A DNA stretch of 64,000 nucleotides. Source: Gammaproteobacteria bacterium (GTDB lineage: Bacteria > Pseudomonadota > Gammaproteobacteria > Xanthomonadales > Marinicellaceae). Position 1 is the first letter of the stretch. Each line of letters begins with the position of its first letter. The translations under genes were made by a program, and so were the position numbers. Below are positions 1-21,638 of the stretch, in pieces. A model generated the notes under the pieces. It searched no databases. It was not told the origin of the DNA and was given only the letters and a program-made list of their open reading frames with translations. The stretch lies in the NCBI GenBank assembly GCA_030430025.1, contig JAUIGR010000003.1, forward strand, positions 62,001 to 126,000, read 5' to 3'.

Positions 1-881
1 TCTTTGGGGCTCATTCTTTGTGAAATTTGCAAGGCATTTTGAGCTTGGTGTGCCAATGCTTGTAAATCATCACGGCCTTCTTTTTGTAAATCAGTGATCA
101 TCGCCATGGCTGTTTGTGCATCACCTTCAGCCAACAGTGTTTCGATTCTTTTGCGAATGGGGTCATCATGATCTAAAGGGTCTTTTCCCCGTATGTCCTC
201 GATGTCATGCGGTGTATGATCAAGTTCATCGGCATGATGATAAATGACATAGCCCATGGCTAGAAAAGAAAAAATCAGCAGATAATACAAAATAAATGAA
301 AGTACCACGTTTTCTAACCACAGTGGCATGGTATTTACCAGGACATTCTGCAATAGCATATTAAGCCCGCCTAGCATAGCCATGAATATGAACAATAGCC
401 AATAATCCACTCCCAATCGTTTAACAATTTCAAGCAAATCAATAGGATTCAGTGCTGATAAGACATGATCTGTTTGTGATAGTAACATCAAAAAAGCAGG
501 AGTCAAAAACAGTGTGACCAATAACAATGATGTTGATAAGGCAGGCTCGCTTTTACTGAGAAAAATGACAATCAATAATTGAATGATGGGCATGGTCATG
601 GCCTTGAAGCCAATCATTTCACTCAGCCCAAAACTGTATTTGTCTTGATATGCAAAGTGTCCGTCTGCTACATCCAGCATCACTTCAAATGCGACCTTAT
701 AAGCGGCTAAAAATAACAGGACAGCAATCAAATAACTCAAAATAGCTGAGGGCAGCATTTCTAGAATGCTGGCGACTGCCAATCCCGTAATCAAGAAAAA
801 CAGCTTGTTACTGCCCATATAACTGATAAAGAAGGGTATTTCAAAAATAAATCGCCGGTTTTGGTGGGGTAGTTGACTCAT
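1..881 (-). CDS. Polytopic membrane protein, C-terminus cut by window edge
   Basis: An open frame runs from an ATG at 881-879 off the left edge, giving about 293 residues with no stop. The N-terminus (MSQLPHQNRR) is followed by several hydrophobic segments, around residues 18-65, 95-145, 160-190 and 195-225. The cytosolic-looking tail is acidic (ELDHTPHDIED) and then forms a helical, TPR-like stretch (IRKRIETLLAEGDAQTAMA). The start overlaps the stop of the upstream kinase gene as ATGA, so the two are translationally coupled in a four-gene minus-strand operon. I do not recognise a family. A membrane protein with a helical-repeat tail is as far as the sequence goes. Confidence 0.7.
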   Translation of the reverse strand, partial: MSQLPHQNRRFIFEIPFFISYMGSNKLFFLITGLAVASILEMLPSAILSYLIAVLLFLAAYKVAFEVMLDVADGHFAYQDKYSFGLSEMIGFKAMTMPIIQLLIVIFLSKSEPALSTSLLLVTLFLTPAFLMLLSQTDHVLSALNPIDLLEIVKRLGVDYWLLFIFMAMLGGLNMLLQNVLVNTMPLWLENVVLSFILYYLLIFSFLAMGYVIYHHADELDHTPHDIEDIRGKDPLDHDDPIRKRIETLLAEGDAQTAMAMITDLQKEGRDDLQALAHQAQNALQISQRMSPK

Positions 882-1510
882 GTGTTTCTCGAGATTTTCA
901 TTAGAGACTCAATGCTTTCCATTAGTTCGATCTGGTCAATTAAATCATTAACATAATCAAGCCGATCAGTTTCTATGGTCAGGACTTTACTGGCAGTGTA
1001 GTGATTAATCCAAGTGGCATATAGTTTTTCCAATCTTTTTAGATAAGCCAGCGGAATGTCTTGCTCCATCGATCGTCCACGGAGCTTAATGCGTTTTCTC
1101 ATGGTGCGAACAGAGCATTTAAGGTAAATCATTAGGTCAGGTGGTTTAATGGCTTTTTTGATGCTTTGGTACAGACCTTGGTAAGTTTGCCAGTCACGCG
1201 CATTGATTTTACCCATTTGTTGTAACGCAGTGGCAAAAATTTCGACATCTTCGAATAGCGTCCTATCCTGAATGACCACACCGGGTGTATTGTCCAGTTG
1301 CTGATGAATTTTAAATTTGCTGCTGAGAAAATACAGTTGTGAGTGAAAGCCCCAGGCAGTCATGTCCTGATAAAAATCATCAAGATATGGGTTATCATCA
1401 TTGGGTTCATAAAATGGCGTGATGTCATAGGTGCAGGTTAAAAACTCTACTAATGAAGTTTTGCCGACGCCGATGTTACCGGCGATACCAATGATCTTTT
1501 GTTCAGTCAT
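878..1510 (-). CDS. Deoxynucleoside kinase family protein
   Basis: 210 residues. Phosphorylates deoxynucleosides for salvage in characterised family members. Visible motifs are the P-loop GNIGVGKTS near residue 11, the DRT motif (QDRTLFEDVEIF, residues ~82-93) that corresponds to the substrate-binding DRS of this family, and an arginine-rich lid (RIKLRGRSMEQD, ~140-151). Length fits the bacterial dAK/dGK group. Substrate specificity cannot be read from sequence. The start (ATG 1510-1508) overlaps the end of the M61 peptidase gene and the stop overlaps the next ATG, so it lies inside one transcription unit. Confidence 0.85.
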   Translation of the reverse strand: MTEQKIIGIAGNIGVGKTSLVEFLTCTYDITPFYEPNDDNPYLDDFYQDMTAWGFHSQLYFLSSKFKIHQQLDNTPGVVIQDRTLFEDVEIFATALQQMGKINARDWQTYQGLYQSIKKAIKPPDLMIYLKCSVRTMRKRIKLRGRSMEQDIPLAYLKRLEKLYATWINHYTASKVLTIETDRLDYVNDLIDQIELMESIESLMKISRNT

Positions 1511-3263
1511 GCGTCATGGCATGTCCTGTCCAAGATTCGAAAATGGCTTTTTGTTTCTTAGAGGGCTTATTGATCGGTTCTATGCTCACCGCTGGCAACT
1601 GTTTTTCACCTACAGTGATGGTGGTTTCTTTGATGACACTGCCACTGGCAAATAATACAACCAAGTCAGTATTATTAACAGCTGATTCCAGTTGTTTCGA
1701 CCACTGATGTGGTTTCAATCTCAGTCCATTCAGTGCAATCAATTCATCACCAGCACTGATCCCTGCCTGCCAGGCAGGACTGTTTTTATCAACCGTGCTA
1801 ACATGTTCATTATCCACAACTAACCCAATCCAGGGTTTGGGATCTTTGTTTTCAGCTTTTTGTAAACCGTAGTACTTCAGCATATCATCGAATGGTAAAC
1901 TTTCAGTACCTTCAATGTATTGTTCCCATTGTTTACTGAAGTCATGACCAGTGATGTCTTTAATCAGATTCACGACATCAGATTGATCATACCCTTGGTC
2001 ACTGTTGCGATGGTTTTTGTACAACGCACGTTGTAAGTCATCGAAACTTTTTTCATTGTCAGTCCACAGACGAATTTGATGATCGATATACCAACTGGCC
2101 ATGGCTCCTTCAAGATAAATGCTGACCCCGGCGTTGTGGTTTCTCTGATTGTCTTCATTCTGCCAAGTATTGAAGCTGGCCTCCGCCAGACTTCTTTCGG
2201 TTCGTCCTGGCTTATTAAGGTGTTTAGTCAGGTTTTCGCTGATTCTTTCTAGAAACTCCGATTGACTGTAAATATCAGCTCTCCTTAAAAATAAGTCATC
2301 GTAATAGCTGGTGCTCCCTTCTACCATCCAGAACAGTTTTGAATAATTTTCCTCATCATAATTATAAGGTGCGATGTCGCTGGGCCGATAAGCTTTAACA
2401 TTCCAAGTATGGATCAGTTCATGAGCAGCAGTAGCTAAGAAACGATGATAGGTTTTGGGATCCCCAAAGCCAAAACGATCAAACTGCATGATGGTTGAGT
2501 TGACATGTTCAGTAGCACCTCTCAAACCATCGCCTGAATGAATCATATAAAGGTATCGTTGATAAGGAAAATCTCCCCATAAATCTTTGGCAACATAGTG
2601 TAGCGCAGTGGTTTTTTGTTGCCAGTCTTTAATATCATGATTTCCTTGACCCCAAATCAGAATTTCATAGCTTAAACCATCAACCTCAAATGATGTTAAT
2701 TGATGATGACCGGATTCTATTGGTGAGTCGACCAGTTGATCATAGTTATTGGCTTTGAATTGATGGTCAGCTAAGGACACCATACCCGAACGACTTTCCC
2801 ACCCTTGTGGCACATGTAAGGTGACGGTCAATGCCTGATCACGAAAAGCCGGTGAATAAACGAACACGCCGCTGGCATCGAGGAAAGCATGAGTTTCATC
2901 TATATGAGCTACTCTTTGTTTTAATGCATTGGCATAAATTTCATATTGTACGGTCACTGCTCCCTTTTGTTTTAAAAACGCTCGCCAAGTATTTTTATCG
3001 ATTTGTTCGACTTTCAGACCCTGATCGCCTTGACTGGCCTGGAGATGTCGAATATTTTTACTTAAGTTGAGAATTTCGTAACGTCCTGAACGCCAAACTG
3101 GCAGTTTAATATCCAGTGTCTTTGTCGCTACTGGCTCAAAAGTCACTTCCACGGTTGCCAGATGGTGAGCTGGATCGGTAATAGTCAAGTGATAGTTGAC
3201 TGTCGATGCGTTTGTCAGTGATTGGGTAATTATCAATGTCATAGTTAAAAAGAATCTCATCAT
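1503..3263 (-). CDS. M61-family metallopeptidase with PDZ domain
   Basis: 586 residues with an N-terminal signal peptide (FFLTMTLIITQSLTNA), so exported, probably periplasmic. The zinc site HELIHTWN lies near residue 282 (HExxH), with a downstream glutamate in WMVEGSTSYYDD (~320) as expected for M61 glycyl-aminopeptidase-like enzymes. An N-terminal beta-rich domain precedes the protease. A PDZ domain (WIGLVVDNEHVSTVDKNSPA and onward) covers roughly residues 475-560. The order beta domain, protease, PDZ is the standard M61 layout. The start overlaps the stop of the upstream UDG-like gene by 4 nt. Physiological substrate unknown. Confidence 0.88.
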   Translation of the reverse strand: MMRFFLTMTLIITQSLTNASTVNYHLTITDPAHHLATVEVTFEPVATKTLDIKLPVWRSGRYEILNLSKNIRHLQASQGDQGLKVEQIDKNTWRAFLKQKGAVTVQYEIYANALKQRVAHIDETHAFLDASGVFVYSPAFRDQALTVTLHVPQGWESRSGMVSLADHQFKANNYDQLVDSPIESGHHQLTSFEVDGLSYEILIWGQGNHDIKDWQQKTTALHYVAKDLWGDFPYQRYLYMIHSGDGLRGATEHVNSTIMQFDRFGFGDPKTYHRFLATAAHELIHTWNVKAYRPSDIAPYNYDEENYSKLFWMVEGSTSYYDDLFLRRADIYSQSEFLERISENLTKHLNKPGRTERSLAEASFNTWQNEDNQRNHNAGVSIYLEGAMASWYIDHQIRLWTDNEKSFDDLQRALYKNHRNSDQGYDQSDVVNLIKDITGHDFSKQWEQYIEGTESLPFDDMLKYYGLQKAENKDPKPWIGLVVDNEHVSTVDKNSPAWQAGISAGDELIALNGLRLKPHQWSKQLESAVNNTDLVVLFASGSVIKETTITVGEKQLPAVSIEPINKPSKKQKAIFESWTGHAMTHD

Positions 3264-3841
3264 AAAATCTGTCGAACCAGAGTTTTTAATTGTGGCAAAA
3301 CCTGTTCAATAAACCAAGGGTTTTTCTTTTGCCAAATGTTATTTCTTGGAGATGGATGAGGTAAGACAAAGAAATCAGGTTGGAATAAATGATAATTTCT
3401 CACTGTTTCTGTTAACTTGCGTTTATTTTCGGGTAAATAATGTTTCATAGCATATTGGCCGATTAATAAGGTCAGTTCAATATCAGGCATACAGTTCAGG
3501 AGTGGCGGATGCCATAAGGGAGCGCATACTTTCATCGGAGGATAATCACCGTTCGGTCCAGTGCCAGGGTAGCAAAACCCCATGGGCATGATAGCGAATA
3601 GGGTAGGATCATAGAATTGATTGGTGTTGACCCCGAGCCAGTCTCTTAAACGATCGCCACTGGCATCATCCCAGGGTATACCAGAGGCATGTACTTTGCG
3701 TCCAGGTGCCTGACCAATGACCAGAATTCGACTGGATTGACTGACGCGCACTACAGGTCTCGGTTCATGAGTTAATTGGGATTGACATCTTGTGCACTGG
3801 GTAATGCGATTGAGCAGATGATTGATGCTGGAGTCGGTCAT
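3260..3841 (-). CDS. Uracil-DNA glycosylase superfamily protein
   Basis: 193 residues. The UDG-fold motif A is seen as VIGQAPGRKVHASGIPWDDA (residues ~41-60) and motif B as LPHPSPRNN (~158-166). Members remove uracil or related lesions from DNA in the cytoplasm. It belongs to the short proteobacterial subgroup with GQAPG...PWDDASG rather than the classical Ung type. Only a CTRC pair is near the N-terminus, and I cannot tell whether an Fe-S cluster is bound. It is the first gene of the operon running to the left edge. Confidence 0.8.
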   Translation of the reverse strand: MTDSSINHLLNRITQCTRCQSQLTHEPRPVVRVSQSSRILVIGQAPGRKVHASGIPWDDASGDRLRDWLGVNTNQFYDPTLFAIMPMGFCYPGTGPNGDYPPMKVCAPLWHPPLLNCMPDIELTLLIGQYAMKHYLPENKRKLTETVRNYHLFQPDFFVLPHPSPRNNIWQKKNPWFIEQVLPQLKTLVRQIL

Positions 3842-3941
3842 GTGATAATGGTATCATAATGTCAATTTGAATGAGCTTCGCTGACTTTCATCTGAGTGTT
3901 GAATAAAGAGGGGCAAGCAGCTTAAATGTGGGAGTATCTAA

Positions 3942-4481
3942 ATGAAAGACAGCACCAGTCACTACGGAAAAATTTCGCGTTTCAATCATTGGGTTGGCGG
4001 ATTGATTGTTATCGCCATGTTAGCCGTGGGGTTATATTTCAATGACATGCCTCGGGGCGAAGAAAAACTTTATTGGTTGAGAATGCACATCAGTTTTGGT
4101 GGTTTGTTTTTTATTTTCCTACTCTTTCGGGTATTTTGGCGTGTGGTGGCCACTTCTCCTCAACCTGTTGAGCAAGCACAGGCCCTACAAATGGCGACAA
4201 AATTAGTCCACTGGGTGTTATTAATCACTGTTTTGATCATGGCTGTTTCAGGTCCCTTGTTGATTTGGACTCGTGGTTCTGGAATCAACGTTTTTGAATG
4301 GTTCACCATTCCTTCCCCTATGGGTAAAATGCCTGAGTTACACGAATGGTGTGAAACCATTCACGCCATCACGGCCAAGGTATTACTGGTGGCATTGATT
4401 GTACACGTACTGGCAGCGCTTAAACATCAATTGATCGATAAAGACAACCTCATGGCCCGTATGATCAAACGATTGCGTTAG
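3942..4481 (+). CDS. Cytochrome b561 family protein
   Basis: 179 residues with four membrane helices. Diheme b561 proteins move electrons between quinol and other carriers in the inner membrane. Putative axial haem ligands are histidines in HWVGG (~residue 17), MHISFGG (~48), HWVLL (~89) and the C-terminal MHAITAKVLL-like segment ('ETIHAITAKVLLVALIVHV', ~140-158). The short-length CybB-like layout is complete. It stands alone, divergent from the UDG-like gene at 3841. A clear start (ATG 3942) follows a purine-rich leader. Confidence 0.88.
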   Translation: MKDSTSHYGKISRFNHWVGGLIVIAMLAVGLYFNDMPRGEEKLYWLRMHISFGGLFFIFLLFRVFWRVVATSPQPVEQAQALQMATKLVHWVLLITVLIMAVSGPLLIWTRGSGINVFEWFTIPSPMGKMPELHEWCETIHAITAKVLLVALIVHVLAALKHQLIDKDNLMARMIKRLR

Positions 4482-6527: not shown

Positions 6528-7073
6528 CTAGGAAGAAATAATATGTTTGATCTCATCACGTGCTCTGGCCACGCGACTTTTTATTGTGCCAATGGCACAA
6601 TTGCATATGTGGGCAGCTTCTTCGTATGAAAAACCACAAGCACCTACCAAGGTCAGTGCTTCTCTTTGATCACTTGGCAATTTTTCCAATGCCGATCTAA
6701 CTTCATCAACTTGTATTCTAGATAGTTGCGTACAGTCTTTGGTAAGTTGCAATGATGTTTGTTCCTTATCTAGATCAATCATTCGCCATGCATTGCGCTT
6801 ACTGGTATAAAAGTGATTACGTAAAATAGTGAATAACCAAGCCTTCATGTTAGTGCTAGGATCAAAACGCTGTTTGGCTTTTAGTGCTTTGAGCATGGTT
6901 TCTTGTACAAGATCATCTGCAGCTGTTTGCTGATGACACAACGAGCGGGCAAAAGCCCTCAGATGCGGAATCATTTTTGTCAGTTCTGAAGTAAAATCAA
7001 ATTCAGCCATAGTCGCTTTATTGAAACCGCCTGTGTTGATCGCATTGGTAGTTTGTTGTTGATTATTCATCAT
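6528..7073 (-). CDS. ecfG: EcfG-type general stress sigma factor
   Basis: 181 residues. The sigma region 2 (LRAFARSLCHQQTAADDLVQ, ~35-54, then WLFTILRNHFYTSKR) and region 4 (ALEKLPSDQREALTLVGACG, then YEEAAHICNCAIGTIKSRVA) match the EcfG/ECF15 class. In Alphaproteobacteria it directs the general stress regulon once released from NepR by phospho-PhyR. The start overlaps the end of nepR by 11 nt, the classical coupled arrangement. Alternative start MAEFDFTSEL lies 21 codons further in. Neighbouring phyR, nepR and HWE kinases make the assignment firm. Confidence 0.9.
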   Translation of the reverse strand: MMNNQQQTTNAINTGGFNKATMAEFDFTSELTKMIPHLRAFARSLCHQQTAADDLVQETMLKALKAKQRFDPSTNMKAWLFTILRNHFYTSKRNAWRMIDLDKEQTSLQLTKDCTQLSRIQVDEVRSALEKLPSDQREALTLVGACGFSYEEAAHICNCAIGTIKSRVARARDEIKHIISS

Positions 7074-7245
7074 CTCTTAAAATCGCTAATAGTTCATCAG
7101 GGATGGGTTCATTTAAGACGTTGTCATACATGTCTGTTAACGATTTTTTGATTTTATCTTCCAATGCCTCATCATCGTATTTTTTACCATGATTTGAAAT
7201 TAATTCATGATCTTTGATACTGTTTTTGTCTGTTGTCTTTTTCAT
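7063..7245 (-). CDS. nepR: NepR-type anti-sigma factor
   Basis: About 60 residues from ATG 7245 (MKKTTDKNSIKD). The C-terminal core SLTDMYDNVLNEPIPDELLA is the NepR signature (Y..vl.EPIPD.l..LL). NepR sequesters EcfG and is titrated by phosphorylated PhyR. An upstream in-frame ATG at 7287-7285 exists, but it lies inside the spacer of an EcfG-type promoter (7280-7305), so transcripts from that promoter cannot include it. I therefore prefer the inner start; read-through from phyR could still use the outer one. Confidence 0.85.
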   Translation of the reverse strand: MKKTTDKNSIKDHELISNHGKKYDDEALEDKIKKSLTDMYDNVLNEPIPDELLAILRDDE

Positions 7246-7279
7246 AGTCGTGCTGCAAACATTTGCTTTGCTACTAATT

Positions 7280-7305
7280 AAACTCATGAGTTAGAAATAA
7301 GTTCC
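7280..7305 (-). promoter_or_regulatory. EcfG-type promoter upstream of nepR-ecfG
   Basis: On the minus strand GGAAC (7305-7301), 16 nt, then AGTTT (7284-7280). The known alphaproteobacterial EcfG consensus is GGAAC, 16-17 nt, CGTT. The position fits autoregulation of nepR-ecfG. Function is inferred from the match. Confidence 0.6.
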
Positions 7306-7314
7306 AAACTTTTT

Positions 7315-8271
7315 TCATACCTTATTTCTAAATCCAATCGCGCAATGAATCTGGCTATTATTTTGTCTAAATACCCCTGAGTCAAATTGGTTCATGGTGT
7401 TGATGGTTTGGATCAGTTTGATGGCGAACTGATTGTCATAATGAGTCAATTGTTGAGTACCTTGGCAATTCTCTGACCAAGTCATTATGCTTAAACCATC
7501 CTTTTGCTGCCACTCAATGGCTACATTGCCTTTGGTATGAGATAACGCACCGCTGGCATTTGATATGTGAATTAATTCATTGAACACCAAACCGACATTG
7601 TTAATTTCATCGGCACTGATGTTGATGTCATTATCTTTATAGCTCACTTGCTCGGGATCTACAGTTGTTAGTATTTGTGAGTGATAGAAGTGTATGACAT
7701 CAAAACCTAGATTATCTTCTTGAAAAAAGTAGTTGTGAGCGAAGGCATTGGCTTTAGCTAATGCATCCAAACGATCAAATAACATATTTTTAAAAGTTGT
7801 AGAATTGATGCCATCAGGGGATGAATTTCTTACCACACTGATCATCACTGAAAACATATTGCGTAATCTATGCTGTAACTCACGTATGGTTTTACTGCGC
7901 TCATGTTGTAACTTGACTTGAGTGGTAACGTCTCTTTGTAAAGAAACATAATGAGTGATTAGACCTGATGCATCACGAACCGGTGAGAGTTCAATCTCGT
8001 TCCAAAATGCGGTACCGTCTTTGCGATAATTGAGTAGGGTTACCTGTCCATTGTGTCCACTTTTTATGATTTTTCTGATTTCTTCAATCGATGTGGGATC
8101 TGTATCTGCACCTTGCAATATTCGACAATTTTTACCAATGATATCAGCTGCTTGATAGCCGGTTTGAGTCTCAAATGCTTTGTTGACACATACCACAGGC
8201 ATATCAGATTGTGAACAGTCACAATAAATAATTGATGTGGAAACAGTATTTAGTTTAAGCCAGTCACTCAT
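7315..8271 (-). CDS. LOV-domain HWE-like histidine kinase with degenerate ATPase
   Basis: 318 residues, cytosolic. Residues ~10-120 form a PAS/LOV domain with the photoactive-cysteine motif GKNCRILQG (~46-54) and the NYRKDGTAFWNE strand typical of blue-light LOV sensors. The dimerisation helix has a phosphoacceptor-like HRLRNMFSV (~133-141). The catalytic domain looks damaged: where the HWE N-box reads ELxTNAxKYGAL, this has ELIHISNASGAL, and the glycine-rich G box is NQFAIKLI. It could be a light-sensing pseudokinase that acts on the adjacent kinase or on PhyR. It abuts the next kinase gene with no gap (stop/start at 8271/8272). Confidence 0.82.
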   Translation of the reverse strand: MSDWLKLNTVSTSIIYCDCSQSDMPVVCVNKAFETQTGYQAADIIGKNCRILQGADTDPTSIEEIRKIIKSGHNGQVTLLNYRKDGTAFWNEIELSPVRDASGLITHYVSLQRDVTTQVKLQHERSKTIRELQHRLRNMFSVMISVVRNSSPDGINSTTFKNMLFDRLDALAKANAFAHNYFFQEDNLGFDVIHFYHSQILTTVDPEQVSYKDNDINISADEINNVGLVFNELIHISNASGALSHTKGNVAIEWQQKDGLSIMTWSENCQGTQQLTHYDNQFAIKLIQTINTMNQFDSGVFRQNNSQIHCAIGFRNKV

Positions 8272-9270
8272 TTATTTAACAGCAATTCTGTCAGTTAACC
8301 ACTGACAACGGTAGTCTAAACCACCAACCACCCAATCTAACTGCGGTTTACCGCCAAATGTGGCTCTTGGCATCGATTTAAGCACCGTCATACCAAAACC
8401 TTCTGATTGTGGAATGTCTTTGAGTTGACTATCACGCTCTAACCAAATCAGTGATGAAATACCATCTTTATTATGACTCACTTCAAAGGTGAGCTCTACT
8501 TCCCCTTGTTTCGATCTCAAGGCACCATACTTCATTGAGTTGGTTATCAACTCACTGGTCACCAAGTACAAGGTTTGTGCGGTTAGACGGTTGATCTTGA
8601 GTTGGTCTGTTTGCTTATTGATTTGTACTTCTCCACCACAGACCGATATTGCTAAGTCAAATACATCCTGACTAGAAAATGTGCCCTCTTTGTCATCAAA
8701 CAATAATTCATTAAATTGGGTTAACGCTTGTAAACGTTCAGAGAAAGTCTGTTCAAGTTGTGATAATGACTCTGCTTCAGAACATGACATCCGAAATAAT
8801 CCGGAAACCACTGCCATTTGGTTGCGTAATTTGTGTGCCATTTCTCGTGAGACTAGATGGGCATGTTTTTCCTTTATCTTCAATGGTGTGATGTCGTAGT
8901 TTACGCCAATTAAATAACGTAGACCATGTTCAGATTGATATACTTTACCGCTTCCAATCAACCATAACTCACGGTTTTGTGGTGTAATAAATCGAAAATC
9001 TGCGTGAAATGTATCAGTGTTATCCATCACTGCTTGGATTTTTTTTGCTGTACGCTCCTGGTCTTCTTCATGGACATGTTGAATAAAAAAGTCGATATTG
9101 AAGGGCTTGGGTACATCCTTGAAGTCAAGCATCTCCTCTAAGATCGGATCCTGATTGATTAAGTCTCCCTCAATATTCCAGATCCAGCGCCCAACTTCTG
9201 CCGCCTGATTGGCCAAGTTATGCCATACTTCTTCAGGAATGATAGTGTCTTTCATTAAAGGTGCCAACAA
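8272..9270 (-). CDS. PAS-HWE sensor histidine kinase of the stress response
   Basis: 332 residues, no membrane segment. A PAS domain occupies ~20-125 (GRWIWNIEGDL ... RYLIGVNYDIT). The HWE dimerisation motif EMAHKLRNQMAVVSG (~142-156) holds the probable phosphoacceptor histidine. The N-box ELITNSMKYGALRS, the WLERD motif and GFGMTVLK are all intact, so this looks like the active kinase. By position between phyR and the LOV kinase it is the likely PhyR kinase/phosphatase. The signal sensed by its PAS domain is unknown. Confidence 0.87.
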   Translation of the reverse strand: MLAPLMKDTIIPEEVWHNLANQAAEVGRWIWNIEGDLINQDPILEEMLDFKDVPKPFNIDFFIQHVHEEDQERTAKKIQAVMDNTDTFHADFRFITPQNRELWLIGSGKVYQSEHGLRYLIGVNYDITPLKIKEKHAHLVSREMAHKLRNQMAVVSGLFRMSCSEAESLSQLEQTFSERLQALTQFNELLFDDKEGTFSSQDVFDLAISVCGGEVQINKQTDQLKINRLTAQTLYLVTSELITNSMKYGALRSKQGEVELTFEVSHNKDGISSLIWLERDSQLKDIPQSEGFGMTVLKSMPRATFGGKPQLDWVVGGLDYRCQWLTDRIAVK

Positions 9271-10044
9271 TTAATCTTTAAAAAAGTACAAAGCTTGACT
9301 GATCGCTGCTTTGACATTACCGGCAGTAAACGGTTTACTGATCAGGTAGGTAGGTTCCAGGCGCTCACCAGTAAGTAATAATTCTGGAAATGCCGTGATG
9401 AAAATAACGGGTACCGAGAATGACTGTAGGATTTCATCAACAGCTTCAATGCCAGAACTATCATCTGCTAAATGCACATCAGTCAGGATTAAACCGGGTT
9501 GTTCCTGTTCTGCCTGAACCACTGCATCGGTATGAGTGGCTGCAATCCCTGATACTGTATGTCCCAGAGATTCCACAATACTTGCAATGTCGGCAGCCAC
9601 CATCGGCTCATCTTCAATGATTAATACGCTGGTCTTTAATTCATTGGCGATTTCCGCATTAACTTGTTCAAGATGTTGATTGATTTGATCAGTAGAAAGA
9701 CCGCAAATCCCTTCCAACTGCTCATCAGAGAAACTTTCCAGTGTGTTTAATAAAAAGATCAAGCGGTTGTGGCTCGATACTTTTAGCAGTTTGTGGTCGT
9801 CTGTAGATGTGTTTTTTAGCGCATGTCGCGCTGGATTTTGCCACAGTTTAAACAATAAATGATAGAGATGACTTTTAGGGTCAGGTTGGTTGCTGCTAGT
9901 TGTTTGGTTGTGTTGAATCAGCACCTGTTTGACTAGGTTATCTCCCGAACTTTGGGAACCGGTCAGTGCCCGGGTGAAACGCCTGAGATAAGGTAGATAG
10001 GGTAACAACTCATTGGCATTGTACATAAAATCCTTTAATTCCAT
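9271..10044 (-). CDS. phyR: PhyR-type response regulator with sigma-like domain
   Basis: 257 residues. The N-terminal ~130 residues form a sigma-factor-like domain (LLPYLPYLRRFTRALTGSQ and LSTDQINQHLEQV). The C-terminal receiver (~138-257) has the acidic pair in IIEDEP, the phosphoacceptor aspartate in LTDVHL, and the ITAFP...LTGERLEPTYLISKPF segment typical of PhyR. Phosphorylated PhyR binds NepR and frees EcfG. It is the first gene of the GSR operon; downstream genes follow without gaps. No GGAAC element is visible immediately upstream. Confidence 0.9.
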   Translation of the reverse strand: MELKDFMYNANELLPYLPYLRRFTRALTGSQSSGDNLVKQVLIQHNQTTSSNQPDPKSHLYHLLFKLWQNPARHALKNTSTDDHKLLKVSSHNRLIFLLNTLESFSDEQLEGICGLSTDQINQHLEQVNAEIANELKTSVLIIEDEPMVAADIASIVESLGHTVSGIAATHTDAVVQAEQEQPGLILTDVHLADDSSGIEAVDEILQSFSVPVIFITAFPELLLTGERLEPTYLISKPFTAGNVKAAISQALYFFKD

Positions 10045-10285: not shown

Positions 10286-10453
10286 TTATGTTGCGGCTCG
10301 AAATAAGTGCATCAATACAGATATGATCAATAGTACCAAAAAGATTCCGAATATAATTTTAGCAAGCCCTGCTGCTGCTCCGGCTATGCCAGAAAATCCG
10401 AAAATGGCTGCCACTATAGCGATGATAAAAAAGATTAAAGCATATGAAAGCAT
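10286..10453 (-). CDS. DUF1328 (YtjA-like) small membrane protein
   Basis: 55 residues from ATG 10453-10451, with a GGAG-type ribosome site just upstream. It begins [20 protein letters not shown], followed by a small-residue segment ([14 protein letters not shown]) and a second helix. This is the standard DUF1328 two-helix layout. Family members are commonly stress-induced small membrane proteins of unknown biochemical role. It sits beside BON and DUF2383 genes, which are also frequent stress-regulon members. Confidence 0.85.
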
Positions 10454-10541: not shown

Positions 10542-11153
10542 TTATGATTTTTTAGCTACCACTAGATTATTTTCAACATCACGAACACCATCTGTGTTTT
10601 TAGCAATTTGAACAATCAAGTCTTTTTCAGCTGAACCATCTACTGTTCCAGTTAAAGTGACCACGCCGTAATGGGTGTCAACATTAACATCTAAACCACT
10701 GGTTTCGCTATTCCAAAGCAATTTAGACTTAACAACAGCCGTAGTGGTAGAGTCATCGTACCACTGGCCAACTGTACGATCTTTATCATCCTTTGATTTA
10801 CCATGTGATTTATCTTCATAATCAGGCTTAACAATCAAATTATTTTCAACCTGTTCTACACCACCAATGCCTTTGGCAATTTCTTGAGCCAAATCTTTAT
10901 CAACATCAGATTTAACTGAACCAGATAAAGTCACTACACCATCATTGACATGGGTATCAATGGTGAAGTTATTCAAATGTCTGTTAACCAATAAAGCTGA
11001 TTCTACTTTGCCGTCAATCCAGGCATCTTTTAAACCACTATTTTTTTCGTAATGATCATTACCACCAGCCATTGTCATTTGTGCCATTGTCAATGAAGCG
11101 GTTAATACTGAAGTTTTAAAAATGGTTCTCAAGTTTTTGTTTGATTTCTTCAT
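10542..11153 (-). CDS. Exported protein with two BON domains (OsmY-like)
   Basis: 203 residues. A signal peptide (KTSVLTASLTMAQMTMAGG) is followed by two BON domains, one at ~residues 45-110 (GVVTLSGSVKSDVDKDLAQE ... GVEQVENNLIV) and one at ~130-200 (GVVTLTGTVDGSAEKDLIVQ ... GVRDVENNLVV). BON proteins act in the periplasm and are linked to envelope and osmotic stress; OsmY is the reference. A charged linker (KSHGKSKDDKDR) joins the domains. It probably shares a transcript with the DUF2383 gene 56 bases upstream. Confidence 0.87.
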   Translation of the reverse strand: MKKSNKNLRTIFKTSVLTASLTMAQMTMAGGNDHYEKNSGLKDAWIDGKVESALLVNRHLNNFTIDTHVNDGVVTLSGSVKSDVDKDLAQEIAKGIGGVEQVENNLIVKPDYEDKSHGKSKDDKDRTVGQWYDDSTTTAVVKSKLLWNSETSGLDVNVDTHYGVVTLTGTVDGSAEKDLIVQIAKNTDGVRDVENNLVVAKKS

Positions 11154-11209: not shown

Positions 11210-11659
11210 TTATTGATTTCTGATCTCAAGGTGGCGTTCTGCAAATCGCTCGCCTTCACAAGAATCCCTATGTGCAGTTTTAAGTAATTGACGTGTGTTA
11301 TAAGTCAATTCTTCGTTGTCTTCTAACTTGTCTTGAATATACTCTGACAAGTAGTCTTCGCCATCATTAATGGCTGAAAGTGCTGCTTTATCGTCATCTT
11401 TAAATAAACCTGTAAACTTTTTGAAGTTTTGATAGACCTTTCCGCGCAAACTGCCATCAGTTTCAGGTTCGCCACCCAAATTTCTAACTTCTTGTTGGAA
11501 AGACTGAACCAACCGATTACGTTGTATGGCTCTGGTAGATAATTCACCTTTTAACAATAAGTACTGACTATCTAACTGATTTGCTGATTCACGAAAACCA
11601 CGTTCGCTGTCAATCAAAATCTTGGTTACATCGTTTAATACTTCTATATTGTTTTGCAT
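11210..11659 (-). CDS. DUF2383 / PA2169-family four-helix-bundle protein
   Basis: 149 residues, fully helical by composition, no signal peptide. The N-terminal NIEVLNDVTKILIDSERGFR and QNRLVQ-like segments (~residues 3-50) and the C-terminal YNTRQLLKTAHRDSCEGERF match the PA2169 family, a ferritin-like four-helix bundle of unknown function. It is found in many proteobacteria near stress genes. A candidate EcfG-type promoter lies about 60 bases upstream (11715-11739), which would place it under the stress sigma factor encoded at 6528-7073. Confidence 0.8.
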   Translation of the reverse strand: MQNNIEVLNDVTKILIDSERGFRESANQLDSQYLLLKGELSTRAIQRNRLVQSFQQEVRNLGGEPETDGSLRGKVYQNFKKFTGLFKDDDKAALSAINDGEDYLSEYIQDKLEDNEELTYNTRQLLKTAHRDSCEGERFAERHLEIRNQ

Positions 11660-11714: not shown

Positions 11715-11739
11715 AACACACAACTACCGATGTTGTTCC
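11715..11739 (-). promoter_or_regulatory. Candidate EcfG-type promoter
   Basis: Minus strand GGAAC (11739-11735), 16 nt, TGTT (11718-11715). It matches the EcfG spacing, with one difference from CGTT in the -10. It faces the DUF2383-BON gene pair. Confidence 0.45.
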
Positions 11740-11919: not shown

Positions 11920-13362
11920 TCAAAGAATTGGTGAAACGAGCCTGGCAGTTTTCTCAAGCAGTGTTTGCAAAGCCGATTTTTTATTGATTGAATTGGCATC
12001 AAGTGGAATCGAATCGGTCAAGTCTTGTTCGAATGTGGTTTTGAGTTGATTAGCAAAATCTTGATCATAAATTAGTGCATTGACCTCAAAGTTAAGTTCA
12101 AAACTGCGCTCATCAAAGTTAGATGTTCCTAATACGCTAAGCAAGCCATCGACAACCATGGTTTTGGCATGAACAAAACCGCGAGTGTATTTGAAAATTT
12201 TCACGTCGACTAACAACAATTCGTCATAAAACGAACCCGCTGCGGTATCCGCCATCCAAGAATCTGACTGTTCAGGGACCAATAATTTAACGCTAACACC
12301 TGCCAATGCCATGATTTTAAGGGCTTTCATGGTTGCAGGATTTGGCACAAAATACGGCGTGGTGATCAGTATTTCCTTCCGTGCCTGATGGATTGCTTGC
12401 AAAATGGCGAACTGAATAGTTGGTTGAGGTGAATCAGGGCCACTCCCCATTATTTGAACCCATTGGGGTGAACTTTGGTCATAGCTAAACTCTTCATCTA
12501 ATGATTTGTGTTCAATGTCTTCACCGATACAAAACTTCCAATCATTGGTGAAAATGTGATTTAGCTGTGTTACCGCCGAACCTGTTATCTTTAGATGAGT
12601 ATCTCTCCAGTAGGTGTCATTGTATTCATTGTGATATTCATTGCCAACATTGATGCCGCCTATATAGCCAGTGGTTCCATCAATAATGACAATTTTTCGG
12701 TGGTTGCGATAGTTCAAACGTTCAGTGAACGCCAGCAGCTTAATTTTAGCAAAGATTGCCACATCAATACCGCCATCACGAAGTTTCTGAAGAATCTTTT
12801 TGTTTAGCCTCAAACAGCCATAATCATCTAACAACAATCTTATTTTGACGCCTTCTTTCGCCTTATTCAGTAGTTGATCAACTATCAACTGTCCTACTTC
12901 ATCGGCTCTGAAAATATAGTATTCCAAATGGATAAAAGTTTTTGCTTGAGCTATATCCTCAAGTAATTGATCGAATTTTTCTTCACCATTATGCAACAGT
13001 TTCAGGTTATTGCCTGTGGTGATCGTATGGCCAGACTCATGCCTGACCATATTGGCTAAAGCATTAAATGGCTGATATTGTGGGGTCATTTTCGAAAACG
13101 GCTGCTCAGCTTGTTCATCAATGTTTTTAGAAACTTGATTGATTTCAAGTTGTTCAGATTGCAACTTTTTCTGATAATGCTTTCTTTTACGTCGTTTGGA
13201 ACCAAATGTGTAATACAACAACACCCCAAAAACCGGAATCACAAAAATGGTGAATAACCAGGCAGAAGCCCTGGAACTGATTGTGTATTGTTGAATGATT
13301 TGTAAACTAACAAATATTAACACGAGCCAATATAAGATATTGATGATATCATGCCAGGTCAT
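11920..13362 (-). CDS. cls: Cardiolipin synthase (PLD family)
   Basis: 480 residues. Two N-terminal membrane helices (~residues 8-55) are followed by two phospholipase D domains with HKD motifs: HRKIVIIDGTTGYIGG (~222-237) and HAKTMVVDGLLSVLGTSNFD (~398-417). Condenses two phosphatidylglycerols into cardiolipin at the inner membrane. Length matches ClsA-type enzymes. It stands alone, separated by about 260 bases from the DUF2383 promoter region. Changed cardiolipin content is a common stress output, but no EcfG site is visible before it. Confidence 0.9.
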   Translation of the reverse strand: MTWHDIINILYWLVLIFVSLQIIQQYTISSRASAWLFTIFVIPVFGVLLYYTFGSKRRKRKHYQKKLQSEQLEINQVSKNIDEQAEQPFSKMTPQYQPFNALANMVRHESGHTITTGNNLKLLHNGEEKFDQLLEDIAQAKTFIHLEYYIFRADEVGQLIVDQLLNKAKEGVKIRLLLDDYGCLRLNKKILQKLRDGGIDVAIFAKIKLLAFTERLNYRNHRKIVIIDGTTGYIGGINVGNEYHNEYNDTYWRDTHLKITGSAVTQLNHIFTNDWKFCIGEDIEHKSLDEEFSYDQSSPQWVQIMGSGPDSPQPTIQFAILQAIHQARKEILITTPYFVPNPATMKALKIMALAGVSVKLLVPEQSDSWMADTAAGSFYDELLLVDVKIFKYTRGFVHAKTMVVDGLLSVLGTSNFDERSFELNFEVNALIYDQDFANQLKTTFEQDLTDSIPLDANSINKKSALQTLLEKTARLVSPIL

Positions 13363-15739: not shown

Positions 15740-15815
<76 letters not shown>

Positions 15816-15908
15816 ACTTTTTATGATTTTTCACATGAATAGTGAGGGTGCGAAGTATAGCAAAAAAAATCAGTTGTTCAATGCTTTTTTTTAAAATTGG
15901 CCATTACC

Positions 15909-16568
15909 TTAATTTTTCTGACAAATCACTTCGTTGATACTGATATTGGGGTGATCTGTTGTTAAATCAGGCAGTTGAGTGCGTTGTTCCTCTGTGATAC
16001 TGTAGTCCAACCAGTATTCTGGCCATTGTTCAATACGCACCTCTTTTTGTGCTTTGAAACCTTTTCGGGACAGTTCGGCGATGCGGTTATCTGCATTGAA
16101 AGATTCTCTGTAAAGGCCCAAAGACACTGTATTTTCGTGGTTGCCTGCAGTGACTACATAATAGTCTTTGATTTTGGCAGATGCCAGTTCACGGCCTTTT
16201 GCTAAAGCGTCTGCTCGTGTAGGTAAGGCAGGTAGATAGATCCAATAGCCGGCCTCTTGTGAGGTGGTTAGTGCTCGGATGTTGGTTTTCAGCACCAGTG
16301 GCTTGAGTTGTTCTTGTAATGTTTGAATGGCTGCTTCGTTATCAAATGGTCCAACGGAAAAGCAATTTTGTTGCATCACTGGTGTGTTGTTTTGATTTGA
16401 TTGCTGTGGCTTGTGGATAGTCGGTTCAATTTCAGAAAGTAGCTTGATTTTAGAGATGCCGGGGTCGCTTGCTGGTAAAGGTTTTGTTATTGGTACGGTT
16501 AGACGATGACTCCAGACAAAAAAGCCAATGTTGGTGATTACTAGTAGTAAAAAAATATACCGCACCAT
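15909..16568 (-). CDS. SPOR-domain membrane protein
   Basis: About 219 residues from ATG 16568 (MVRYIFLLLVITNIGFFVWS), chosen because it puts a membrane anchor at the N-terminus and avoids overlap with birA. A Pro/Gln-rich linker follows. The C-terminal two thirds carry SPOR-like segments (CFSVGPFDNEAAIQTLQEQL; DYYVVTAGNHENTVSLGLYR). SPOR domains bind denuded peptidoglycan at division sites in the periplasm. It follows birA in the same direction, as in several gammaproteobacteria. Promoter shared with birA is likely. Confidence 0.8.
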   Translation of the reverse strand: MVRYIFLLLVITNIGFFVWSHRLTVPITKPLPASDPGISKIKLLSEIEPTIHKPQQSNQNNTPVMQQNCFSVGPFDNEAAIQTLQEQLKPLVLKTNIRALTTSQEAGYWIYLPALPTRADALAKGRELASAKIKDYYVVTAGNHENTVSLGLYRESFNADNRIAELSRKGFKAQKEVRIEQWPEYWLDYSITEEQRTQLPDLTTDHPNISINEVICQKN

Positions 16569-16614
16569 GCGTTCCTTAAATTTGATGGTTGGAATTATAC
16601 TCAAGCTGTCCTTA

Positions 16615-17481
16615 TTATGAAGACTTGTTTGACGATAATATGGTGCCACTGGTAAATGAGTGTATGCCACTGCCTGTTTGTAGCAGTAACTTGCCTTGTT
16701 CGTCAATGCCGATGTATTGTCCTGTGTGCGAATGTGTTCTGTCTTGTAAAGTGATAATTTGATTGACTAAGTGATCATGTTGCGACCAGTCATCGATGAA
16801 AGAAGTAAAGCCGAATTGGCAGAAAGTCTCACAGCTGTTTTTGATGTCTTTGAGTAGTTGGATAATAAATGTTGTGCGACTGATCGATTGAGTGTCTAAA
16901 GGTATATTGGTGGCTGGCTGGCTGATGATGTTCAATTGTTTGGCCGAGAGCTGCCAGTTGATACCTATGCCCAGAGTGACTTCAACTTGATGTTTATTCA
17001 ATGTTTTGGCCTCTGTCAGTATGCCGGCAAACTTATTGTTATGGTTATATAAGTCATTGGGCCATTTAATGGTCACAGAGGTGTGAGCAAAATGTTTTAT
17101 GGTTTTGATTACAGCCAGTGCGATTGCCAGAGTAAAACCAGACATAGAAGTCATTGATAGCGGTAATATGAAGCGGTGAGATAGGCAGACTGATCTGGCC
17201 AACGGTGTTAACCAAGAACGGTTGTTTTGGCCAACTCCTGCGCTTTGGTGTTCTGCAATAAGTGTGCTGTTAGGTTTGACCTGTTTTTGAGTAGACGGTG
17301 TTGTGCACACTACTTCAATGATTGAAAAGTCGATGGCTTGTTGTAACGCTTGTTTATCGATGGGAATGATGATTTGATTCGGATCTAAGCCAGCCTTTGT
17401 GAGGATTTCTAGTTGATCCGAATTGAGACTTTCCTGGTTATGGCACCACTGATAGAACAGTGTTGATAAGGTTGAACTCAT
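16615..17481 (-). CDS. birA: Biotin--[acetyl-CoA carboxylase] ligase
   Basis: 288 residues. Attaches biotin to the carboxylase carrier protein. The catalytic-domain signature KWPNDLYNHNNKFAGILTEA (~residues 143-162) holds the key lysine, followed by LGIGINW (~172-178). The biotin/AMP loop normally reads GRGRRGR; here it is AGVGQNNRSW (~85-94), so several arginines are missing. The N-terminal ~65 residues include a short HTH-like segment. The stop/start overlap with the upstream esterase (4 nt) indicates co-transcription. Confidence 0.87.
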   Translation of the reverse strand: MSSTLSTLFYQWCHNQESLNSDQLEILTKAGLDPNQIIIPIDKQALQQAIDFSIIEVVCTTPSTQKQVKPNSTLIAEHQSAGVGQNNRSWLTPLARSVCLSHRFILPLSMTSMSGFTLAIALAVIKTIKHFAHTSVTIKWPNDLYNHNNKFAGILTEAKTLNKHQVEVTLGIGINWQLSAKQLNIISQPATNIPLDTQSISRTTFIIQLLKDIKNSCETFCQFGFTSFIDDWSQHDHLVNQIITLQDRTHSHTGQYIGIDEQGKLLLQTGSGIHSFTSGTILSSNKSS

Positions 17482-18152
17482 TCAGCTGAGGTATCTTTTT
17501 TCTTGAGTCTCAGAATGAATTGTTTGATGTCTTCCAGTTCATCCATAGAAACGCCATGTTGTAGTGGATACTGGTGCCATGACACTTGATATCCAGTAGC
17601 TTTTAGATGGTCAGCAGATGCTTTGCCTAGTGCAAAGGGGACAACCGGATCATATTGTCCGTGACCAATAAAATAGGATGTTCTCATGTTCATTTGACTG
17701 TGTTCATTAACCAGCAATTCTTGCATCGGCAAGTAGCAGGAAAGTGCTATTACACCAGCGAGCCTTTCTTTAAAACGTGTGGATATGTGTAGTGACATAG
17801 CACCACCTTGTGAAAAGCCCGCCAAAACGATTTGATCGCTGCGCCAGCCTTTTGCTTTCTGTGCCTCTATCAGCGCCAGTATTTTTTGCTCAGATTCTCT
17901 GATGCCTTGTTCGTCTGGCATTTTGCCGATGTCCATTATTTTAATATCATACCAAGAGCGCATGGCCATACCACCATTGATAGTGACTGGTTGTATTGGT
18001 GCGTGAGGAAAAATAAATTCAATATCAACGTTGGGATTTTTGAATTGAGGTACTACTGGTTCAAAATCATGGCCATCAGCACCCAGCCCGTGTAGCCATA
18101 TGATCAGTAAATCGGGGGCGTTGCCAGTTTGTCTAGTGATGTATTCAAGCAT
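17478..18152 (-). CDS. Carboxylesterase/phospholipase-type alpha/beta hydrolase
   Basis: About 224 residues from ATG 18152 (MLEYITRQTG), with AGAGA 5 nt upstream; an in-frame start at 18236 would add 28 poorly conserved residues. Visible are the oxyanion-hole motif LHGLGADGHDF (~22-32), the nucleophile elbow AGFSQGGAMS (~116-125) and a late GHGQYDPVVP with the acid. This pattern fits the EstB/YpfH-like carboxylesterase family of ~220 residues. Broad esterase or lysophospholipase activity is likely; physiological substrate unknown. Confidence 0.85.
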   Translation of the reverse strand: MLEYITRQTGNAPDLLIIWLHGLGADGHDFEPVVPQFKNPNVDIEFIFPHAPIQPVTINGGMAMRSWYDIKIMDIGKMPDEQGIRESEQKILALIEAQKAKGWRSDQIVLAGFSQGGAMSLHISTRFKERLAGVIALSCYLPMQELLVNEHSQMNMRTSYFIGHGQYDPVVPFALGKASADHLKATGYQVSWHQYPLQHGVSMDELEDIKQFILRLKKKDTSAE

Positions 18153-18217
18153 GAAATCTCTGTGAGATGCTAAAGGTCTCATATTATAATGCGTGGTTCT
18201 ATGAATTGGGTTTGAAT

Positions 18218-18355
18218 ATGATAAAAACCAAATCAATGTGGTTATCGGTGTTTTGTTTGATTGTCAGTGGATGCGGTAACAGAGGTGATTTGTATGTCCC
18301 TCAAGATGACAATCATCAGCAAAAACAAGAGCAAACTGAACAAAAGAATGACTGA
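18218..18355 (+). CDS. lptM: LptM-like small lipoprotein
   Basis: 45 residues from ATG 18218 (MIKTKSMWLSVFCLIVSGCG). The lipobox VSGC is followed by GNRGDLYVPQDD, matching the CGxxGxLYxP pattern of LptM (YifL), which assists LptD maturation in the outer membrane in E. coli. The gene lies immediately before dapF, as in other gammaproteobacteria, and overlaps its start by 8 nt. Confidence 0.85.
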   Translation: MIKTKSMWLSVFCLIVSGCGNRGDLYVPQDDNHQQKQEQTEQKND

Positions 18356-19097
18356 TGTTTTTCATAAAATGCAGGGTTTAGGTAATGATTTCATGTTGAT
18401 AGATGCAACTTTAGGCTGGTCATTGCCTGATGCTCATATAATCAGACAATGGGCTGACCGCCGCACAGGTATTGGGTTTGATCAGTTAATATATGTCAGT
18501 GGACAGCCCAATAATTGGCGATATCAATTTTTTAATGCAGACGGTAGTGAAGCTGAACAATGTGGCAATGGACAGCGTGCTTTGGCACTATATTTGTCAC
18601 GACAATACCAGGCTACATGGCCACAGGTAGTTGATGGTTTGGGCGGAAAGGTTTCCTTATCAGTAATAGATGAAGACCATATCAAAGTGATTATTCAAGG
18701 TGCCATTGAATGCCATTCAGTTGGAGCAGGTATGCATGTTAACGTAGGTAATCCGCATTGGGTGCTGGTAGTTGATGATGTTCAAGCAGAAGGATTTAAA
18801 CATTGGAGGGAACAAGCAAAGTTGTTCTTTCCCCAAGGAGTTAATATAGAGCTAGTTGAGCAGTCTGAACCTGGAGAAATAGTCATCCGTATATGGGAAC
18901 GAGGGACTGGAGAAACACAAGCATGTGGCAGTGGTGCCTGTGCGGCTGCTTGGGCATTAACTATGGATAATCAGCAGTCTACATATAAAGTGAGTATGCA
19001 TGGCGGTATTTTACAAGTAATATGTGATCGTAATCAGGGTACAATTTGCATGACTGGCTCAGCTAGGCATGTGTTTCAGGGAGTTATTACTGGATGA
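18348..19097 (+). CDS. dapF: Diaminopimelate epimerase
   Basis: 249 residues from ATG 18348 (MTDVFHKMQGLGNDFMLID). Converts LL- to meso-diaminopimelate for lysine and peptidoglycan synthesis. Both catalytic cysteines are seen, in EQCGNGQRAL (~residue 70) and QACGSGACAAAW (~196-207). An upstream in-frame ATG inside lptM is rejected because the conserved N-terminus begins here. Somewhat shorter than the E. coli enzyme (274). ATGA overlap with the next gene. Confidence 0.93.
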   Translation: MTDVFHKMQGLGNDFMLIDATLGWSLPDAHIIRQWADRRTGIGFDQLIYVSGQPNNWRYQFFNADGSEAEQCGNGQRALALYLSRQYQATWPQVVDGLGGKVSLSVIDEDHIKVIIQGAIECHSVGAGMHVNVGNPHWVLVVDDVQAEGFKHWREQAKLFFPQGVNIELVEQSEPGEIVIRIWERGTGETQACGSGACAAAWALTMDNQQSTYKVSMHGGILQVICDRNQGTICMTGSARHVFQGVITG

Positions 19098-19777: not shown

Positions 19778-19778
19778 C

Positions 19779-19810
19779 TTTTCAGGTGTTTAAATAGTTG
19801 CACCTGAAAA
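19779..19810 (+). terminator. Terminator after the dapF operon
   Basis: Perfect 10-base arms TTTTCAGGTG and CACCTGAAAA with a 12-base loop, immediately after the DUF484 stop. The run of T on the 3' side is short. Confidence 0.6.
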
Positions 19811-19834
19811 ATGCATAACGTATTGTTAACTATC

Positions 19835-20104
19835 AAGAGTTACTTCAATTTTGCACATTTTTTCGACCAGGAAACACAGGTGTCACGATGCATTTTTATT
19901 CGCCGCTTCCATGTGACTCTCAGGCTAACGTGAAAAAGTTTTCCAGAAACTTTTTTATGGTCGATGGTGTGGCACAGGGATTTGCCACCTTGAGCCATCA
20001 GGCTCAAGTAAGGTCAAAAAACATCAGCAAAATCACACTTTTGCGCTTAAGTGTTTTTTTGGCCAATGCTGGAAAAGGCCAGGGACTTTTTCAGGACTGA
20101 CTAA
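19835..20104. repeat. Dispersed repeat, full-length copy
   Basis: About 270 bases starting AAGAGTTACTTCAATTTTG and ending TTCAGGACTGACTA. The head and tail recur at 58671-58744, where about 190 internal bases are missing. The interior has a strong hairpin (CTTGAGCC / GGCTCAAG, 19989-20008). It contains a 70-codon open frame that I do not consider a gene. Likely a genome-specific non-autonomous repeat. 20105-20280 shows nothing further. Confidence 0.6.
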
Positions 20105-20309: not shown

Positions 20310-20383
20310 GCAGGCGCTTTTACAAGGGCAAGCAGTTTGATAGGTTGGAAGAGTCTCACAAAAAGGGTTTGTGAGCGCTAAGT

Positions 20384-21638
<1,255 letters not shown>

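Follow-up and report, generated by a model that had tools for sequence, protein, structure and literature searches.

Does a gammaproteobacterium carry a complete general stress response switch of the alphaproteobacterial type, and if so, how did it come to be there? The question is raised by five genes in a 64,000-base stretch of DNA from a member of the Marinicellaceae (here called the window; positions 62001-126000 of contig C21). According to excerpts of a published account, EcfG is 'exclusively present' in Alphaproteobacteria, and homologues of EcfG, NepR and PhyR are 'absent in other classes' (PMC3892343). We found no report of the circuit outside Alphaproteobacteria in the titles and abstracts of the literature searched (open-licence PMC papers only). 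We found that the locus is a genuine and rare stress switch of alphaproteobacterial type, most likely acquired laterally by its gammaproteobacterial host, with a pair of HWE proteins that divide the kinase motifs between them.

The phyR-nepR-ecfG locus and its host

The five genes are co-directional open reading frames on the minus strand (10044-6528; Table 1). In order, they encode PhyR (257 amino acids, aa), a PAS-HWE kinase (332 aa), a LOV-HWE protein (318 aa), NepR (74 aa) and EcfG (181 aa). The first four genes are separated by 0, 0 and 27 bases and nepR and ecfG overlap, spacing from which we infer a single operon. An earlier note on this DNA had read it as phyR, two HWE-type kinases, nepR and ecfG, and the family searches agreed that all are present. 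All five frames are open, and the core motifs of PhyR, NepR and EcfG are retained.

PhyR scored 295 bits against a cut-off of 240 with the NCBIfam PhyR subfamily model, and residues 11-255 of 257 align to solved PhyR chains (PDB, E ~1e-57). It has an N-terminal sigma-like domain (PF22029) and a C-terminal receiver (PF00072) with the phospho-acceptor Asp; PF22233 by itself was below its cut-off (21.9 vs 27). D189, T217 and K237 are invariant columns in an alignment of six sequences, and we presume their roles to be those usual in the family. The small gene adjoining ecfG encodes a NepR anti-sigma factor: it passed the Pfam cut-off (27.5 vs 25.7 bits) and matched a solved NepR chain (E 5e-5), and was below the NCBIfam equivalog cut-off (31.7 vs 100). 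EcfG matched both DNA-binding regions of sigma factors. Its top NCBIfam models are generic (PRK12547 and PRK12516, both titled 'RNA polymerase sigma factor'; 177 bits each vs 219 and 321). Its identification as EcfG (ECF15)-type therefore comes from its position, from an alignment in which the TNMKAWLFTILRN and GTIKSRVARAR blocks are kept in common with alphaproteobacterial EcfG, and from grouping with phyR-adjacent alphaproteobacterial sigma factors in a tree that has no non-EcfG outgroup. Identity to these relatives reaches 55%. Judged from these divergent sequences, the assignment of PhyR is firm and those of the other four proteins are good.

The locus shares with the alphaproteobacterial response the three core proteins with conserved motifs, inputs of the HWE family and adjacent nepR and ecfG. 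It differs in the class of its host, in having phyR first and co-directional, in the two HWE genes between phyR and nepR, and in showing no enrichment of canonical promoters. We compared it with named genomes, in which at least 457 relatives were confirmed; the best 80 were used, chosen for similarity to the window PhyR and hence an uneven sample. By title, 78 of these 80 are Alphaproteobacteria and two are unspecified Proteobacteria. In a similarity search with the window proteins, the ecfG gene is divergent from phyR in 52 of the 80 loci, in the same direction in 25, and not over threshold in three. Only one, from a Rhodospirillales metagenome-assembled genome (MAG; L146), has phyR, a kinase gene, nepR and ecfG in one direction. 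None of the 80 has two HWE genes between phyR and nepR, with kinases detected only via similarity to the window pair.

The host is outside the Alphaproteobacteria by 16S rRNA. Its partial 16S sequence is 95.3% identical to that of a congener (G400) and 89.2% to that of another genome of the family (G375). Against plasmid-borne records, the 12 matches listed of 567 were Legionella, Methylomagnum and Burkholderia, at 82%. With a full-length 16S sequence from a congener, all 40 records listed of 572 were gammaproteobacterial (best 84.8%). In both searches one record, outside those listed, fell in the 90-95% band. Gammaproteobacteria in the GTDB sense include Betaproteobacteria. Both flanks are, from their conserved gene content, DNA of the genus (Table 1). 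In the flank stretches of two congeners that we read (G442 and G497) nothing matched the circuit; the two flank blocks are on separate contigs there, and the empty junction itself was unseen. The segment has also been rearranged, since in six congeners (G400, G414, G421, G447, G457 and G477) the best match to cls is less than 5 kb from the M61 gene and is turned the other way relative to it. The earlier note had placed an alphaproteobacterial-type circuit in a gammaproteobacterial setting and had named an alphaproteobacterial host as the finding that would undo this. The 16S sequence, the flanks and a scan of the class (below) all speak for the gammaproteobacterial setting.

It might be that an alphaproteobacterial fragment was misassembled or binned with gammaproteobacterial DNA. 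The genome is a 3.08-Mb draft in 114 contigs (completeness 97.47%), and one record of the same family (G384, below) does carry alphaproteobacterial DNA at its phyR locus. However, the operon lies within a contig of 126,549 bases (126.5 kb) with genus-conserved genes on either side, and the contamination estimate is 0.28%. The circuit genes are 31-43% guanine plus cytosine (GC), like their neighbours, versus 48-50% at the three nearest alphaproteobacterial loci. The best named relative by E-value among the matches listed, a Hellea MAG, is 49% identical. Contamination or misassembly is thus extremely improbable.

Table 1. Positions of the circuit, its neighbours and candidate promoters in the window.
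Feature	Position	Strand	Basis
Left flank, dNK-M61-UDG-b561	878..4481	.	Conserved in congeners G442 and G497, both without the circuit
ecfG, EcfG (ECF15)-type sigma factor; start overlaps nepR end by 11 bases	6528..7073	-	Sigma-70 regions 2 and 4, alignment, tree
nepR, anti-sigma factor; core YDNVLNEPIPDELLAIL; Met15 (7245) a possible alternative start	7063..7287	-	PF18557, 3t0y_B, alignment with alphaproteobacterial NepR
Candidate EcfG-type promoter GGAAC-N16-AGTT over annotated nepR start; weak, post hoc	7281..7305	-	Motif scan
LOV-HWE protein; LOV motif GKNCRILQ, H-box HRLRN, N-box Asn to Ile, GFG lost	7315..8271	-	NF052306 and NF010077 (both under cut-off), 8c05, 6ph4, 4r3a, AlphaFold2
PAS-HWE histidine kinase; H-box HKLRN, N-box ELITNSMKYGAL, GFG present	8272..9270	-	PF07536, PF08447, Brucella LOV-HK 6ph4, alignments
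phyR, anti-anti-sigma response regulator; sigma-like domain and receiver	9271..10044	-	NF006623, PF22029, PF00072, PDB PhyR chains
DUF1328 small protein, possible regulon member	10286..10453	-	PF07043
Two-BON-domain OsmY-like protein, possible regulon member	10542..11153	-	PF04972 (E 4e-38); OsmY model 87 bits, under cut-off of 174
DUF2383/PA2169-family four-helix protein, possible regulon member	11210..11659	-	PF09537 and TIGR02284, over cut-off
Candidate EcfG-type promoter GGAAC-N16-TGTT, ends 55 bases upstream of the DUF2383 gene; weak, post hoc	11715..11739	-	Motif scan
cls, PLD-family, cardiolipin-synthase-like gene	11920..13362	-	PF13091
Right flank, tRNA-Thr-SPOR-BPL-hydrolase-dapF-atp genes	15740..24579	.	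Conserved without the circuit in G442 and, to its contig end, G497

Division of kinase motifs between the two HWE proteins

Both HWE proteins exceed the Pfam HWE_HK cut-off (44.4 and 31.9 vs 22.8), so to that extent the earlier note was right to speak of two HWE-type kinases. It did not mention that one of them is a LOV protein with a degenerate ATP site. The PAS-HWE kinase aligns to the PAS-HK part of the Brucella LOV-HK structure 6ph4, and its ATP site looks intact. In an alignment of 12 sequences, the H-box Arg and the N-box Asn are each kept in at least 90% of rows. The PAS-HWE kinase has Lys at the Arg column and the LOV-HWE protein has Ile at the Asn column (N-box ELIHISNASGAL, vs ELATNAVKYGAL in 6ph4). 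That is, HRxxN, which portions of two papers give as a mark of general stress response histidine kinases (PMC4814048, PMC8103513), and an intact ATP site do not occur together in one protein here; they are divided between the two.

In alignments with LOV structures (best E 1.5e-30), the LOV motif of the LOV-HWE protein falls on the corresponding motif. We take GxNCRxLQ to be the flavin-binding motif with the reactive cysteine. An AlphaFold2 model made from a 12-row alignment had a mean predicted local distance difference test score (pLDDT) of 76.3 and a predicted template modelling score (pTM) of 0.54. Brucella LOV-HK and Erythrobacter EL346 ranked first among its matches, at low TM-scores over the whole chain (0.44 and 0.41); in both, as here, an HWE module is coupled to a LOV domain that carries the cysteine motif. 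The top-ranked plasmid-borne matches of the two HWE proteins were all alphaproteobacterial (34% and 27% identical). A LOV-HWE protein on a plasmid of Rhizobium sp. Q54 (LR606148.1; L270) also lacks the N-box Asn and GFG, in a set of seven sequences, and its gene adjoins that of a response regulator.

Published precedents, as described in extracts of the papers concerned, guided our reading of this pair. Sphingomonas PhyT (formerly PhyP) has HRxxN and a degenerate ATPase domain, and it transfers phosphate from SdrG to PhyR (PMC5898713). Caulobacter PhyK and LovK take phosphate from MrrA, and PhyK acts independently of ATP binding (PMC5964349). In Rubellimicrobium, one PhyR receives its signal from a LOV-HWE kinase (PMC12148442). 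By these descriptions LovK, PhyK and PhyT are HWE/HisKA2 phosphotransferases. The window protein resembles PhyT in having HRxxN, a degenerate ATPase domain and a gene at the phyR locus (PMC5898713), and LovK in being a LOV protein (PMC5964349). It differs from PhyT, which is membrane-anchored, in consisting of LOV and HWE parts only, in the loss of the N-box Asn and GFG, and in having its gene inside the phyR operon. Based on these precedents for HRxxN proteins that do not need ATP, we predict that the LOV-HWE protein is a light-sensing phosphotransferase of the LovK/PhyT type, paired with the PAS-HWE kinase.

The sequences show which families are present, their order, the state of their motifs, the lineage of the host and the patchy distribution. 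The path of phosphate, the light input, the regulon and the activity of the circuit would then be as follows. Without stress, NepR would sequester EcfG. Stress would cause the PAS-HWE kinase to autophosphorylate, and the phosphate would reach Asp189 of PhyR, either directly or via His134 of the LOV-HWE protein. The latter, its own ATP site lost, would then serve, in the manner of Caulobacter LovK and PhyK and Sphingomonas PhyT, as a phosphotransferase or a brake tuned by blue light or redox state. Phosphorylated PhyR would capture NepR and free EcfG, as expected of a partner switch. Free EcfG would raise expression of nepR-ecfG, and perhaps of the adjacent DUF2383, BON and DUF1328 genes. A more tentative idea, to which we give a minor share of belief, is that the two proteins make up a split kinase, the PAS-HWE protein giving the ATP site and the LOV-HWE protein the PhyR-specific HRxxN His, by heterodimer or relay. 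Blue light would then gate the passage of stress signals to a small and local regulon whose -10 element has drifted, in a lineage that lacks RpoS. The divided motifs permit a direct test of decayed HWE proteins as phosphotransferases.

Distribution and origin of the circuit

The circuit is patchily distributed. Our genome-wide searches used PhyR and EcfG. The PhyR cut-off was passed in 2 of 369 genomes of the class, the host and one other (G275). Within the order, a search at 1e-25 gave 2 of 398 genomes, of which one (G384) is a doubtful record whose match lies in alphaproteobacterial DNA. A search at 1e-12 gave 3 of 151: the host, G384 (residues 145-254) and G371 (receiver domains of larger frames). 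None of the 17 other genus genomes had PhyR at 1e-25, and EcfG was found in 1 of the 18 genomes of the genus (1e-15).

We considered G384 as a second carrier in the family and rejected it. Over its phyR stretch, nucleotide identity is 79-81% to loci of Aurantimonadaceae and 79% to those of Sinorhizobium (top eight matches). Fourteen of 15 sampled stretches had a GC content of 56-60% and one (the first 5 kb) had 25%; no small-subunit rRNA was found in this record. It is probably a mixed or misassigned assembly (L039, L043-L057) with an alphaproteobacterial phyR region of broken frames. In G275 (L040, G275:C7:410000-428000), phyR is divergent from nepR-ecfG, and the locus has an EcfG-like sigma factor, a HisKA_2/HWE kinase and a DUF1328 gene. 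Its NepR exceeds the Pfam cut-off (46.2 vs 25.7).

The trees point to the Caulobacterales/Maricaulales side of the Alphaproteobacteria. In the PhyR tree (87 rows), the window lies inside a starred set of Caulobacterales and Maricaulales (support 95/82), itself within a larger starred set that adds Hyphomonadales (97/87). In the EcfG tree (83 rows), the window is sister to Caulobacterales, Hyphomonadales and Maricaulales (89/75, not starred), and a 99/97 branch parts it from G275 and rows dominated by Hyphomicrobiales. Among 86 loci, the top scores for PhyR, EcfG and NepR were from L071, L067 and L078, respectively; all three belong to the Caulobacterales/Maricaulales side, and the PhyR tree groups them with one another. 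The PhyR of G275 groups with Kaistia (97/78 and 93/82 in two trees). This, together with the 99/97 branch in the EcfG tree, favours two transfers.

The second carrier also bears on vertical inheritance, in which the common ancestor of Alpha- and Gammaproteobacteria would have had the circuit and nearly all Gammaproteobacteria would have lost it. In its favour, G275 carries phyR and nepR together with an ecfG-like gene and a HisKA_2/HWE kinase gene. The approximately unbiased (AU) test did not reject, at 0.05, a clade uniting the two carriers (p 0.105 for PhyR and 0.054 for EcfG). Against this, 367 of the 369 class genomes sampled (judged by the PhyR cut-off) and 17 of the 17 congeners sampled would have had to lose the circuit, and the free trees place the two carriers in different alphaproteobacterial neighbourhoods. 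We regard it as very unlikely.

Several observations weigh against a complete, acquired switch. The window branches are very long (4.5 for PhyR and 2.99 for EcfG), and the amino-acid make-up of the window row is unusual. The join with Robiginitomaculaceae, a weak sister, was flagged by the program and has support of 81/57 (PhyR) and 90/49. With an Azospirillum outgroup and 51 chosen rows, the window falls in no starred set, and holding the alphaproteobacterial group together without the window was not rejected (AU p 0.43). Even the best named relative is only 49% identical. The H-box of the PAS kinase is HKxxN, not HRxxN. No single-domain partner of the MrrA/SdrG type was identified, and none was specifically searched for; the sole single-domain receiver noticed (L003) is CheY/PilH-like by eye. 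Finally, canonical promoters are not enriched (below), so a broad regulon is unproven.

Despite the long branches, transfer is the best reading of the PhyR and EcfG trees and the NepR scores. We consider it probable that the host laterally acquired a complete PhyR-NepR-EcfG switch from an alphaproteobacterium on the Caulobacterales/Maricaulales side, and that the switch is now at host base composition. The patchy distribution and the PhyR and EcfG trees favour the earlier note's idea of transfer for the core circuit, with the reservation of long branches. Because GC content fits the host neighbours, either some time has passed since the transfer or the donor itself had a low GC content. A whole and apparently intact circuit here, with a second in G275, suggests mobility of the switch as one unit; in a new host it offers a natural experiment on the rebuilding of a sigma-factor regulon. 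A Rhodobacteraceae plasmid (CP081165.1; L065) has phyR, a small gene in the nepR position, ecfG and a kinase gene next to dps-type, DUF1328, phospholipase-D-type, AI-2E and CsbD genes, so that the stress circuit and effectors share one plasmid. It is possible that a plasmid of this kind was the vehicle.

Promoters, neighbouring genes and other elements

The earlier note had proposed that the circuit moved together with its promoters. The core circuit does appear to have been transferred; the promoters do not bear out the rest of that claim. We looked for EcfG promoters (GGAAC-N16/17-CGTT) at the locus and genome-wide. None of the eight locus upstream regions tested had a CGTT-type site. The host genome had 14 sites, compared with 11-33 in 17 congeners without PhyR at the threshold used, and the backwards-pattern control gave 62 in the host genome. 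The sole GGAAC-N15-18-CGTT in the window (N18, 13998-13972) is ~610 bases from cls, and 0.73 were expected by chance.

Two variant sites (Table 1) sit where one would look for autoregulation and for a stress-gene target, which is suggestive only. The AGTT site runs over the start annotated for nepR and could serve this gene only from an internal start such as Met15. A spacing control within the locus is weak: of 12 matches over 36 spacings, 3 fall at spacings 16 and 17 and two at spacing 19. We also tried GGAAC-N16/17-[AT]GTT upstream of genes. A first set of 403 kb of the host's own DNA, including the window, had five sites compared with a mean of 0.5 at control spacings. We rejected this enrichment: the held-out 548 kb had 3 vs 1.4, and 400 kb of a congener (G442) had 2 vs 1.0. 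With NGTT, the held-out DNA had 3 vs 2.2. For an extended motif taken from the two locus sites (TTGGAAC-N14-TG[AT]GTT), 951 kb of the host's own DNA held one further copy (0.3 expected in all), which lies within a coding frame, and 635 kb from congeners held no copy. With almost no further copies, it yields no regulon.

It could be that the circuit was acquired but is decaying, or that it acts only locally, on itself and neighbouring genes, and is not a general stress response. The lack of canonical promoter enrichment and the held-out NGTT count fit this, as do the lost ATP site of the LOV-HWE protein and the failure to find the circuit in sampled congeners. However, all five frames are open with the core motifs of PhyR, NepR and EcfG kept, and a lost ATP site need not abolish function, as the account of Caulobacter PhyK cited above suggests. 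We hold decay or purely local action to be doubtful, though a serious contender. RpoS is the usual stress regulator of Gammaproteobacteria. None of the 18 genus genomes had an RpoS over the cut-off of 378.7 bits (1 of 14 control genomes did), so the circuit may fill that gap. The best matches to the RpoS model in the genus scored ~290-300 bits, mostly in frames of 605-628 aa. At E <= 1e-80, 17 of the 18 genomes had matches, which we rejected as RpoS since none reached the cut-off; their frames are 605-628 aa long, apart from one of 376 aa. From their size, these sub-cut-off matches appear to be RpoD-like.

Other genes adjoin the circuit. DUF1328 genes are also found near phyR in L039 and L040 and on plasmid CP081165.1. 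By eye, an inverted repeat followed by T's at ~10258-10232 may end the DUF1328 transcript ahead of phyR. Between the genus-conserved blocks are also a DUF4253 gene and an unassigned 190-aa frame beside ecfG (4807-6422), and a short Fic-domain gene (14839-15234).

Farther along the window there is probably a Tn7-like element (31679-56106), which begins 24 bases past the glmS stop (31655). Its ends are imperfect 29-base inverted repeats (31679-31707 and 56078-56106, 86%), and TnsA-, TnsB-, TnsC- and TnsD/TniQ-like genes lie at 50111-55891. The cargo includes an AEP-TOTE primase-helicase and a Dnd phosphorothioation island with DndA-like (just under the cut-off), DndB and DndE genes and candidates for DndC (PAPS reductase) and DndD (AAA/SMC). 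Within the Dnd island, a gene at 40940-43681 encodes a 913-aa protein with an RNA polymerase alpha C-terminal domain and sigma-70 region 4, an odd combination for a defence island.

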